Shown here: positions 4,856-49,253 of the stretch, one piece after another | Layout: the number at the start of each line of letters is the position of its first letter | How positions within the stretch are numbered: the first letter of the stretch is position 1 | Assembly (NCBI GenBank): GCA_026196105.1 | Contig: JAPHRK010000024.1 | Coordinates: 1-64,000, forward strand | DNA from: Rhodospirillales bacterium | Lineage (GTDB): Bacteria; Pseudomonadota; Alphaproteobacteria; Rhodospirillales; JAPHRK01 | Reading direction: 5' to 3' | DNA: 64,000 nucleotides | The notes under the pieces: generated by a model | Told to the model about the DNA's origin: nothing | What the model saw: the letters and a program-made list of their open reading frames with translations, nothing else | The model's database searches: none | Position numbers and translations under genes: made by a program

Positions 4856-5839
4856 ATGGGGATTTTAAAAAGAAAGCATAACCGTAAATTACTGTGGGGT
4901 ATGTTTCTGCCATTACTGGCTTTAGCAGGCTGTGGTGGTGTGGACTTTAGCTCAGTCAATCCAGATGGCACCTCTCGAGAGGCGATGCCGACTGTACGAG
5001 TAAACGCCCAACAAAACAAAGGTGGGACAGTTATTGTCCAAAAAGGAGACTCGGTTTATGCCATCGCTCGGAGGGTCGGTGTTCCTGTTCGTGCGCTAAT
5101 CGAGGCCAATCGTTTAAAACCCCCTTATCTGCTCTATGTTGGCCGTAAACTTTATATCCCCCGTATTCATTCTCACACCGTTATCAAAGGCGATACCCTC
5201 CATAAGGTTGCGCGCCAGTACGATGTGAATGTTTATGAACTCGCGAGGCAAAATGATTTACGTTCTCCCTACACCATTCGCATTGGGCAAACTTTAAGGC
5301 TTCCTGGTGTCGAGAAGACAATTGTTGAAAAGGTGGTTTCTGCAGTTAAGTCAGGAACAAAATCTTCAGCAACAACAAAACAGGCTCCTCGCACAACAAG
5401 TAAGTCACGCCCAGTCCCTAGAAAAAGGGTCGCGTCAGTTCCCACTCCCCCTAAAGCCAGTGGCAAAGGCTTCGCTTGGCCTGTCAGAGGAAGGGTGATT
5501 TCTAACTTTGGCGCTAAAGATAAAGGCCTTCATAATGATGGTATCAACATCCTGGCTCCTAAAGGGACGCCAGTTCGTGCCGTTGAAAATGGGGTCGTTG
5601 CCTATGCGGGTAATGAATTGAGGGGTTTTGGGAACCTACTTTTAATTAAGCACTCTGGTGGGTGGATTACGGCCTATGCCCATAATGATTCCCTGTTAGT
5701 AAAGCGCGGCGATAAAGTTGGCAAAGGGCAGGTAATTTCGAAAGTCGGCAGTAGCGGCAGCGTCACCATCCCTCAACTCCATTTTGAAATTCGGCGGGGT
5801 AAAAAATTATATGACCCTCGGAAATATCTAAAGCTATAG
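4856..5839 (+). CDS. LysM/M23-domain lipoprotein, probably a non-catalytic amidase activator (NlpD/DipM-like)
   Basis: A 327-residue envelope protein. A lipoprotein signal ends in LALAGC with Cys26 as lipidation site. Two LysM peptidoglycan-binding domains follow (~58-102 and ~108-152), then a basic Ser/Thr/Pro linker (~155-205) and a C-terminal M23 (LytM) domain (~208-325). M23 zinc positions are degenerate: HNDGIN has Asn where the usual Asp stands, and PQLHFE lacks the first His of the usual HLH. It therefore probably activates amidases rather than cutting murein itself. In many alphaproteobacteria a similar gene lies just upstream of the DUF815/yajC/secDF block, as here. A stop at 4850 fixes the ATG at 4856 as start. 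Confidence 0.88.
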   Translation: MGILKRKHNRKLLWGMFLPLLALAGCGGVDFSSVNPDGTSREAMPTVRVNAQQNKGGTVIVQKGDSVYAIARRVGVPVRALIEANRLKPPYLLYVGRKLYIPRIHSHTVIKGDTLHKVARQYDVNVYELARQNDLRSPYTIRIGQTLRLPGVEKTIVEKVVSAVKSGTKSSATTKQAPRTTSKSRPVPRKRVASVPTPPKASGKGFAWPVRGRVISNFGAKDKGLHNDGINILAPKGTPVRAVENGVVAYAGNELRGFGNLLLIKHSGGWITAYAHNDSLLVKRGDKVGKGQVISKVGSSGSVTIPQLHFEIRRGKKLYDPRKYLKL

Positions 5840-46591: not shown

Positions 46592-47419
46592 CTAAATGCG
46601 TTTGCGGAATTTTGGAACTTTCATTTTGCGATATTCTTGCAAGCCGCGCCCCTTTTTTTTGTAAGCCGTTGTTGGGCTTGACGAACCGCGTAGAGCTTTC
46701 AAGTGTTCCCCTATTTTACTTTTTTGCCTTTCTACTGTTGCCCTTGCTTGTCGGCTTTTCATAAATTTGTTTACCAGTGTGGAGCGATCAAAGTCCACGG
46801 GGACAATATAAGGGTTTGATTTCTCTTCTACCCGGGCGGATTGAACTGCAGGTTCATCATGTTGAATTTCATTCCATAAACCAAGGACACGTTCTTTGTA
46901 TCTCATTCCTTTTTCAGGCGTACCTGAATGATAATAGGCCGTCGCCTGATTCCAGGAACCATTGCTCTTAAACAGGCGTTTTAGAAAAGAAGCGCTATAT
47001 TCTGCGTTGCTTTGGGGGTCGAATGCTTCATCTAAGGAATCGAAAGCGTCTGGGTGATAATAGAGATTAATTTGCATGCAGCCGACGTCAATATTTTTAA
47101 TTCCCTGAGCTTTTAACTCTTTTACCGCACGAATTGCTGTGGATTTAGATGGGTAGTAATTGCCTTTCCCTTTAGCGGTAACGGTCCAAGGCCAGGCAAT
47201 AATTTCCTTCTTCTCTTTATCCCACCGACCGCTTTCCGCAATAGAAATAGCGGTTAATAAGTTCTTAGGTATATGGTTTAAACGTTCTTGTTGATTGGTG
47301 TGCTTACGGCAAATAGTTTCATTAAAAACAGTATCTTGGTAGGCATTCACTGGCATGGAAACAAAACCTATAGCTATGGTTGCTGCTGCTAGTATAAGAG
47401 TTCTGAATTTGAATGACAT
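46592..47419 (-). CDS. Lytic transglycosylase (SLT domain)
   Basis: A 275-residue exported murein-cutting enzyme. It has a signal peptide (TLILAAATIAIGFVSMPVNAYQ). The SLT active-site Glu lies in AISIAESGRWDK (~64), followed by GCMQINLYYHPDAF and ATAYYHSGTPEKGMRYKERV. The C-terminal ~75 residues are basic and repeat-poor (EYRKMKVPKFRKR). It is convergent with the DUF218 gene. Upstream lies the candidate small RNA on the opposite strand. Confidence 0.88.
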   Translation of the reverse strand: MSFKFRTLILAAATIAIGFVSMPVNAYQDTVFNETICRKHTNQQERLNHIPKNLLTAISIAESGRWDKEKKEIIAWPWTVTAKGKGNYYPSKSTAIRAVKELKAQGIKNIDVGCMQINLYYHPDAFDSLDEAFDPQSNAEYSASFLKRLFKSNGSWNQATAYYHSGTPEKGMRYKERVLGLWNEIQHDEPAVQSARVEEKSNPYIVPVDFDRSTLVNKFMKSRQARATVERQKSKIGEHLKALRGSSSPTTAYKKKGRGLQEYRKMKVPKFRKRI

Positions 47420-47530: not shown

Positions 47531-47559
47531 TTGCGTCCATCTCGCAACAAGGTTATAAC
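47531..47559 (+). promoter_or_regulatory. Promoter of the candidate small RNA
   Basis: TTGCGT (47531-47536) and TATAAC (47554-47559) are separated by exactly 17 bases. The predicted start, 6-8 bases later, falls at the first base pair of the first RNA hairpin (47566). The -35 half lies inside a small hairpin GTTGCG/CGCAAC (47530-47548). Confidence 0.6.
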
Positions 47560-47565
47560 AGTTTC

Positions 47566-47660
47566 TAGCAGCCAGATGGCACCCCCCCCGCCATCGACAT
47601 GCTGCTAACTTGGACGTTTCCTCCCAAGCTAGGGCCACACCTTATGGTGTGGCCCCTTTT
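47566..47660 (+). ncRNA. Candidate trans-acting small RNA with C-rich and CCUC-containing loops
   Basis: About 95 bases in a gene-free gap fold into three hairpins. Hairpin 1 pairs TAGCAGC (47566-47572) with GCTGCTA (47601-47607); its inner stem GATGGC/GCCATC (47575-47580, 47590-47595) presents a loop of A plus eight Cs. Hairpin 2 pairs CTTGG (47609-47613) with CCAAG (47624-47628) around ACGTTTCCTC. The third is the terminator. C-rich and CCUC loops in alphaproteobacterial small RNAs such as AbcR and CcsR pair with Shine-Dalgarno sequences. Homology to those is not claimed. It is on the strand opposite to both flanking genes. Confidence 0.6.
47632..47660 (+). terminator. Intrinsic terminator of the candidate small RNA
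   Basis: A 10-bp stem GGGCCACACC/GGTGTGGCCC (47632-47641, 47646-47655) with loop TTAT is followed by C and TTTT. The T-run is on the plus strand only; the minus side has no U-run, so it does not serve the gene ending at 47719. Confidence 0.8.
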
Positions 47661-47718
47661 GGTTTCTGAGCTATAAGAACAAATGGAAGTAGTGTTCGCT
47701 TTGTAAGAACGTTTGGTC

Positions 47719-49164
47719 TTATTCTTTAGGCAGTGATTTATTGGCGTCGCCTAAGGGGCGCATTAAGAGGACGGTATCAACCCACCGGCCGAATTTAAAC
47801 CCAACGGCAGGTAACAACCCAACTTGCTCGAAGCCTGCTTTGACATGAAGTTTAATCGAGGCGTGGTTGTTGGGTTCCCCGATCACAGCAATCATTTGCC
47901 TGAAACCCCGTTCGGTACATTCATCAATCAAGGCATTGAGTAACAATTTACCGATTCCCTTTCCTGTGGCTTCAGGAGAGAGATAAACAGAATCTTCGAC
48001 AGTATGACGGTAGCCACTCCTGCTACGATAAGTCCCGGCGTAACCATAACCGATAATGTTGCCTTCCAATTCAGCAACTAAATAAGGATGGTTGCCTTTG
48101 ATTGTGTTTTGCCAGCGCTTGGTCATTTCAGCAGAATCCGGAGCGACTTCTTCATAAGTCGCCGTTGTCGTGTCCACATAGTGGGCATAAATCTCACAAA
48201 TAGCCCCCAAGTCTTCTTTTTTGGCGGCTCTAATATTGGTAGTATTTTCGTTTGTCATGGTCTTGTTTAACTTTTGTGAGGCCTGCTTGCACAAGTGGGC
48301 CATTAGTTTATCTGCGGTTTCTTTAAGTTTTTCCAGCCCTTCGGTTCGCTCAATTGTTCGTTCATCCATATAGAGGTCACGGTTTACCTCGATTTGAAGG
48401 GCGTGAACATTTTCCTCAGGCTTCCCATAATGTCGGGTGGTAAAGCCGCCAGCGTAGGGGGTGTTTCGGGTCACAACGTAGCCTAAACCTTTGAGAAAGA
48501 CTTCGGTTTCATCAATAACAAAGCTATCGCACGATGCACCGTGGCAATCGCCTAGAACAAAATCTACCCGTTGGTTTCCCGCATCCCGGTCCATTGGCCC
48601 ACCGATGGAAGGCATAGAGTGACAATCAATCAGCACGCAGGCGCCAAATTTTTGTTTCGTTTTAGAAATTAAATTCTCTAGCGCTTTGTGATAAGGTGTG
48701 TAAAGAGCCTCAATCCGCTCACGAGCCTCATCAAACTCAAGCTTATCTCGATAAATTATTTCGCCGCTTGTCACCACTTTCGCAATGGTACCAAGTCCTG
48801 CGGAAACACGCGGGGTATTGGTGTCAACATAATCGGGCAGGGGAGTTGAGAACATCGTCTGGTCTAGTTCATACGGTTGGCGGTTAGGATCAACATAGGC
48901 CCGAGGAAAATGAGCGCAAAGCATGGGTGCGCCATAGTTTGGGGCGTTTTGGTAAACCTCATCAATAAATGAATCCTCAGAACGGCGAATGTTGGTTCCA
49001 TCCAAACGTGAAGAATCGAGAAATGCTTGAGGATAGGCTCGCCCGCTGTGGGGGGAGGCAAAAACCACCGGTGATGTTTGGGAGCTGGGGGTTAAAATAC
49101 TGTACGGGGCCTTTAGCAGAGCTGCACCAATCAGTTTTTCTTTCCCACTTGTATGCGTTGTCAT
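47719..49164 (-). CDS. N-formylglutamate amidohydrolase fused to a GNAT acetyltransferase
   Basis: A fusion of about 481 residues. The N-terminal ~300 residues match N-formylglutamate amidohydrolase/HutG2 (VFASPHSGRAYP, RSEDSFIDEV, LIDCHSMPS, ALQIEVNRDLYMDE). The C-terminal ~165 residues are a GNAT N-acetyltransferase of phosphinothricin/methionine-sulfoximine type (IRAAKKEDLGAICEIYAHYV, SVYLSPEATGKGIGKLLL, VGFKFGRWVDTVLL). An internal ATG (MTNENTTNIR, at about 48258) marks the join and could allow separate translation. ATG at 49164 is the likely start; GTG/other codons to 49224 precede it. Upstream is a palindrome AAAGCCC-AA-GGGCTTT (49201-49216). Confidence 0.85.
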   Translation of the reverse strand: MTTHTSGKEKLIGAALLKAPYSILTPSSQTSPVVFASPHSGRAYPQAFLDSSRLDGTNIRRSEDSFIDEVYQNAPNYGAPMLCAHFPRAYVDPNRQPYELDQTMFSTPLPDYVDTNTPRVSAGLGTIAKVVTSGEIIYRDKLEFDEARERIEALYTPYHKALENLISKTKQKFGACVLIDCHSMPSIGGPMDRDAGNQRVDFVLGDCHGASCDSFVIDETEVFLKGLGYVVTRNTPYAGGFTTRHYGKPEENVHALQIEVNRDLYMDERTIERTEGLEKLKETADKLMAHLCKQASQKLNKTMTNENTTNIRAAKKEDLGAICEIYAHYVDTTTATYEEVAPDSAEMTKRWQNTIKGNHPYLVAELEGNIIGYGYAGTYRSRSGYRHTVEDSVYLSPEATGKGIGKLLLNALIDECTERGFRQMIAVIGEPNNHASIKLHVKAGFEQVGLLPAVGFKFGRWVDTVLLMRPLGDANKSLPKE

Positions 49165-49253
49165 TTGATCTGTTCCCAAACTTCTATTGCTTACTCTGGT
49201 AAAGCCCAAGGGCTTTATATGCAACGATTATGTGGGAATATTAATGCTAGCTA

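Follow-up and report, generated by a model that had tools for sequence, protein, structure and literature searches.

A divergent small RNA of the Rhodospirillales, very probably a member of the alpha-r8 (MmgR/SisA) family

Introduction

A 64,000-nt stretch of a Rhodospirillales genome (contig JAPHRK010000024.1; hereafter the window) contains, between two minus-strand genes, a gap in which a small RNA (sRNA) can be predicted on the plus strand. An initial annotation made from the sequence alone described there a promoter, two stable hairpins and a terminator, and could not assign the RNA to a family. The question raised by this locus is whether it encodes a new class of sRNA or a form of one already described. 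An obvious point of comparison is the alpha-r8 family, whose members associate with Hfq and carry a 10-mer anti-Shine-Dalgarno core, and for which CrfA acts as a sponge in Caulobacter (PMC12559287, PMC7143759). In most species a single alpha-r8 copy adjoins an N-formylglutamate amidohydrolase (FGase) gene (PMC12559287).

Results

The features of the locus are collected in Table 1. The predicted sRNA is read in the direction opposite to both neighbours, as originally proposed, and a promoter is indeed found at the place first given for it. Taken alone this promoter is weak, since it shares 8 of 12 bases with the consensus, a match that 15% of shuffled sequences equal, and TTGCGT-17-TATAAC is absent from the list returned by a generic promoter scan. 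In most of the relatives defined below, CTTGC is followed after 17-18 nt by a TA-rich hexamer, from whose end it is about 5-8 nt to the GCARC with which the hairpin begins; in the window, TTGCG, 17 nt and TATAAC precede GCAGC by 8 nt. The place of the promoter relative to the hairpin is thus conserved, and it is this position that supports an otherwise unremarkable sequence.

Table 1. Coordinates of the sRNA locus and its neighbours in the window
Feature	Position	Strand	Basis
sRNA gene	47566 to about 47660	+	Predicted RNA of ~95 nt
Promoter: -35 TTGCGT (47531-47536), 17-nt spacer, -10 TATAAC (47554-47559)	47531-47559	+	Sequence
5' hairpin: outer stem UAGCAGC/GCUGCUA (47566-47572/47601-47607), inner stem GAUGGC/GCCAUC, eight-C loop	47566-47607	+	Folding and relatives
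Eight-C run in the loop of the 5' hairpin	47582-47589	+	Alignment; not seen in relatives
Weak window-specific stem CUUGG/CCAAG over the core (47609-47613/47624-47628)	47609-47628	+	Folding and relatives
Family core GUUUCCUCCCA, putative anti-Shine-Dalgarno	47616-47626	+	10-mer consensus UUUCCUCCCU, last base changed
Intrinsic terminator, 10-pair stem (47632-47655), tail CUUUUGG	47632-47660	+	Sequence and folding
SLT-domain (lytic transglycosylase-like) gene, divergent neighbour	46592-47419	-	PF01464
N-formylglutamate amidohydrolase fused in frame to GNAT acetyltransferase, convergent neighbour	47719-49224	-	PF05013 (E 9.6e-76), PF13420

Folding bears out only part of the claim of two stable hairpins. 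The 5' hairpin, outer and inner stems together, reaches -18.4 kcal/mol (z -5.3), a value equalled by none of 200 shuffles (0/200), whereas the CUUGG/CCAAG stem amounts to -3.4 kcal/mol (z -1.1) and 26/200 shuffles do equally well. The plus-strand terminator is present as described: its stem, including three tail bases, folds at -22.5 kcal/mol (z -5.7), and its U-tract is short, with four consecutive Us only. The entire sRNA stretch folds with a z-score of -5.5, and the core is predicted to lie in a 10-nt loop, its last bases being held in the weak stem of -3.4 kcal/mol.

A default Rfam scan of the window returned two tRNAs and nothing at the sRNA. A permissive scan matched RF00519 (suhB/mmgR) over all 77 model positions, at 32.6 bits (E 7e-5). 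The gathering cut-off of this family is 41 bits, which is a curation threshold and not a biological trait, and the sRNA is therefore hidden from the default search. What was found is thus a match to a known family that changes the interpretation, an outcome that the initial annotation had itself named beforehand as counting against it. A covariance model trained on 31 relatives, with the window left out, matched 47565-47668 at full length (45.2 bits; E 6e-11 for the 335 kb searched), and DNA-level matches to the core and terminator were found in two further families of the order. The internal 10-mer of the family is UUUCCUCCCU; the window has UUUCCUCCCA, identical at 9/10 bases, with the last base changed from U to A, and the preceding CUUGGACG is identical to the consensus. 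Two relatives, L004 and L010, carry the same change at the end of the core, and L010 scores 58 bits, over the RF00519 cut-off. The core CUUGGACGUUUCCUCCC of the window is identical to that of the relatives, and the RF00519 score of the window copy is lower than theirs. No further closely similar alpha-r8 copy was found in the window genome.

The same genome encodes a second sRNA candidate with a CCUCCC motif (L002:1082-1170, contig C59, minus strand), composed of a hairpin, ACCUCCCUGUYAAACU and a terminator, and located near a quinone-oxidoreductase gene. It carries ACCUCCCUGUCAAACU before its terminator and scores 31.5 bits against RF00519, so that a weak Rfam score of about 32 bits is not sufficient for assigning a sequence to alpha-r8. 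This candidate is not detected by the relatives' covariance model, and we found no Rfam family of its own for it. Its 15-mer CCTCCCTGTYAAACT occurs in 71/150 genomes of the order, often twice, compared with 2 for the reversed control; the C59 candidate is a conserved sRNA different from the window's alpha-r8 copy. Because of it, the RF00519 score of the window sRNA would not alone decide the family, and the assignment rests on the relatives' model, the core and the gene order.

RF00519 exceeded its cut-off in 149 of the 297 genomes of the order that were searched. Our comparison set comprised 35 relatives (30 loci retrieved with the RNA family, two DNA hits and three reached via the neighbouring transglycosylase), all from outside the window's own genus and family. 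Common to the 35 is the core CUUGGA[C/U]GUUUCCUCCC, preceded by a hairpin that opens with GCAGC or GCAAC and closes with GCUGC, GUUGC or variants. RNAalifold recovered few pairs on a MAFFT alignment because stem lengths vary, and the hairpins were consequently tested sequence by sequence: the z-score of the 5' hairpin was below -1.5 in 35/36 sequences (window included), with a median of -3.75. The inner stems vary in sequence among relatives while their pairing is kept. Compensating base changes in both stems had been named as evidence that would support the prediction; they are seen in the outer stem of the 5' hairpin, one pair of which is G-C in 15 sequences, A-U in eight and G-U in seven, but the CUUGG/CCAAG stem is not kept whole. 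It has 5/5 pairs in the window only and 3-4 of 5 in the 35 relatives, where its 3' side reads CCUAA (25), CCUAG (5), CCUGA (2), CCAAA (2) or CCUGG (1); CCAAG occurs in 1/36 sequences, the window. The CCUC-loop stem is accordingly not supported as a conserved hairpin. Neither the alignment nor the individual folds of the relatives showed a C-rich loop in the 5' hairpin. We also noted, in a Rhodospirillales genome, an intergenic region that holds a pair of alpha-r8 copies in tandem (L006:5354-5450 and 5647-5759).

The gene order agrees with the family. Adjacency to an FGase gene, a trait of alpha-r8, is present in the window, and the divergent SLT-domain gene lies beside the RNA in 27/35 relatives (22/30 of the loci retrieved solely through the RNA family). 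The transglycosylase-amidohydrolase pair is also found without the RNA in many genomes. A separate peculiarity of the window is that amidohydrolase and GNAT domain form one open frame; in 8/8 relatives checked a stop precedes the GNAT domain.

In Sinorhizobium meliloti, PhaR (AniA) acts as a repressor of mmgR and bound the mmgR promoter in gel shifts, the motif containing YGCRNYGCR (PMC12542648), and removal of the 10-mer of MmgR leads to PHB over-accumulation (PMC12559287). A YGCRNYGCR box lies at or just before the start of the hairpin in 31/35 relatives, the background frequency of the pattern being about 0.0005 per base. No such box occurs in the window between 47450 and 47750, nor at this position in L010, L033, L043 and L055. 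In eight relatives (L005, L031, L032, L039, L050, L053, L058 and L060) a second PhaR-type box is found 29 nt upstream of the first and overlaps the -35 element. The window genome encodes PhaR, three phasins and three PHB-synthase-like (PhaC) proteins, with PhaR-type boxes upstream of phaR and of two phasin genes, which means that both the regulator and its sites exist in this genome. We infer that the box was lost at this locus rather than never present. Since the start site has no PhaR box, it is probable that the window lineage has lost the usual PHB-linked repression of the sRNA gene or has replaced it.

Discussion

We conclude that the window sRNA very probably belongs to the alpha-r8 / MmgR / SisA family (Rfam RF00519 "suhB"), and that it is a divergent member with a few lineage-specific changes. 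The family is already described from across the alphaproteobacteria, is linked to carbon storage and probably acts by blocking ribosome-binding sites. The general likeness drawn at the outset to C-rich, probably trans-acting alphaproteobacterial sRNAs with an anti-Shine-Dalgarno element was well founded; the view that no family could be named is superseded by the 32.6 bits of RF00519, the 45.2 bits of the relatives' model, the core and the synteny. With MmgR of S. meliloti the window RNA shares the core CGUUUCCUCCC, the terminator and a full-length model match; it differs in that MmgR has a listed length of 77 nt (PMC7143759), compared with about 95 nt predicted here with a long 5' hairpin, and in that the MmgR promoter has a PhaR/AniA site (PMC12542648). 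The core, the hairpin before it and the terminator are likewise shared with SisA-D of Caulobacter crescentus, and sisA adjoins the FGase gene (PMC12559287) like the window copy, whose core differs in ending with A instead of U and in being partly closed by a five-pair stem. The AbcR RNAs (alpha-r15) also have CU-rich anti-Shine-Dalgarno elements, bind Hfq and partly resemble the suhB model (PMC7143759). No AbcR match was obtained in Rfam for the sRNA stretch. The gene neighbourhood of AbcR RNAs also differs from that of the window.

Other readings of the locus have to be weighed against this one. A new class of sRNA, targeting through two elements, its eight-C loop and its CCUC-loop hairpin, would be in keeping with eight Cs in the loop of a very stable hairpin and with a CUUGG/CCAAG stem that is complete in the window, all the more as the C-run's absence was judged on relatives outside the window's genus and family. 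The full-length alpha-r8 match, together with a core and gene order common to the family, leaves this reading very little room, and its two supposed elements fare poorly among the relatives, whose loop is not C-rich and in which the second, weak stem is never complete. We are also reluctant to see here a decaying copy that yields a poorly made or inactive RNA, a reading with a slim chance of being right: it could appeal to the missing box that 31/35 relatives have, to a new stem that partly closes off the core, to the short U-tract of the CUUUUGG tail and to a family score below that of the relatives in a genome with no close second copy, yet neutral decay would not keep a hairpin of z -5.3, a terminator of z -5.7, a promoter and 9/10 core bases intact. 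Moreover, the change at the end of the core recurs in L004 and L010, and L010, L033, L043 and L055 have no box either.

That there is no RNA gene at all, and that the structures are a bidirectional terminator or a leader element of the neighbours, seems to us extremely improbable. The location between two minus-strand genes and a terminator hairpin readable from both sides would allow it, but throughout the order the plus strand keeps the succession of promoter, hairpin, core and terminator, and transcripts of the family are known from S. meliloti and C. crescentus (PMC7143759, PMC12559287).

As an alpha-r8 RNA, the window sRNA would be transcribed from its own promoter into a 5' hairpin, the CCUCCC core and a terminator hairpin, ending at the intrinsic terminator. 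Its active element is likely this core, and not the eight-C loop that had been put forward as the main functional feature. Hfq-assisted anti-Shine-Dalgarno repression is, by analogy, likely to be its mode of action, and an hfq gene is present in the window genome (E 5e-32): with the help of Hfq, the core GUUUCCUCCC would pair with Shine-Dalgarno regions of the GGAGGAAA type and thereby reduce translation from a group of mRNAs linked to carbon and nitrogen status. The sRNA may in turn be titrated by an AG-rich sponge RNA, as SisA is by CrfA. It is from the relatives that we infer transcription, Hfq binding and anti-Shine-Dalgarno action for the window copy.

The genome shows no enrichment of core-complementary sites (48/44 versus 55/55 for a reversed control), and the starts of the phasin genes and phaR do not stand out as targets, since their duplexes with the core have energies from -6 to -16 kcal/mol where ordinary Shine-Dalgarno starts in the window reach -18.3 at best. 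The start of an ABC-transporter ATPase gene (GGGAGGAAACCAACATG, L073, C7:97885-97897) pairs with the core at -20.7 kcal/mol; having been picked from a genome-wide search, it is a lead only.

It is conceivable, if rather improbable, that the lineage-specific changes go together and have made of this alpha-r8 RNA one that is freed from PhaR (PHB) control, carries a second, C-rich targeting loop and holds a latch stem over its core. Such an RNA would answer a different signal and act on G-rich targets that are not reached by other family members.

The locus adds a divergent member, missed by default Rfam searches, to a widespread and still poorly understood family of riboregulators. As the relatives show, the start site commonly carries a PhaR box in this order, so that the proposed connection between PHB state and this RNA can be tested far outside the rhizobia; the window copy provides a natural exception to that arrangement.
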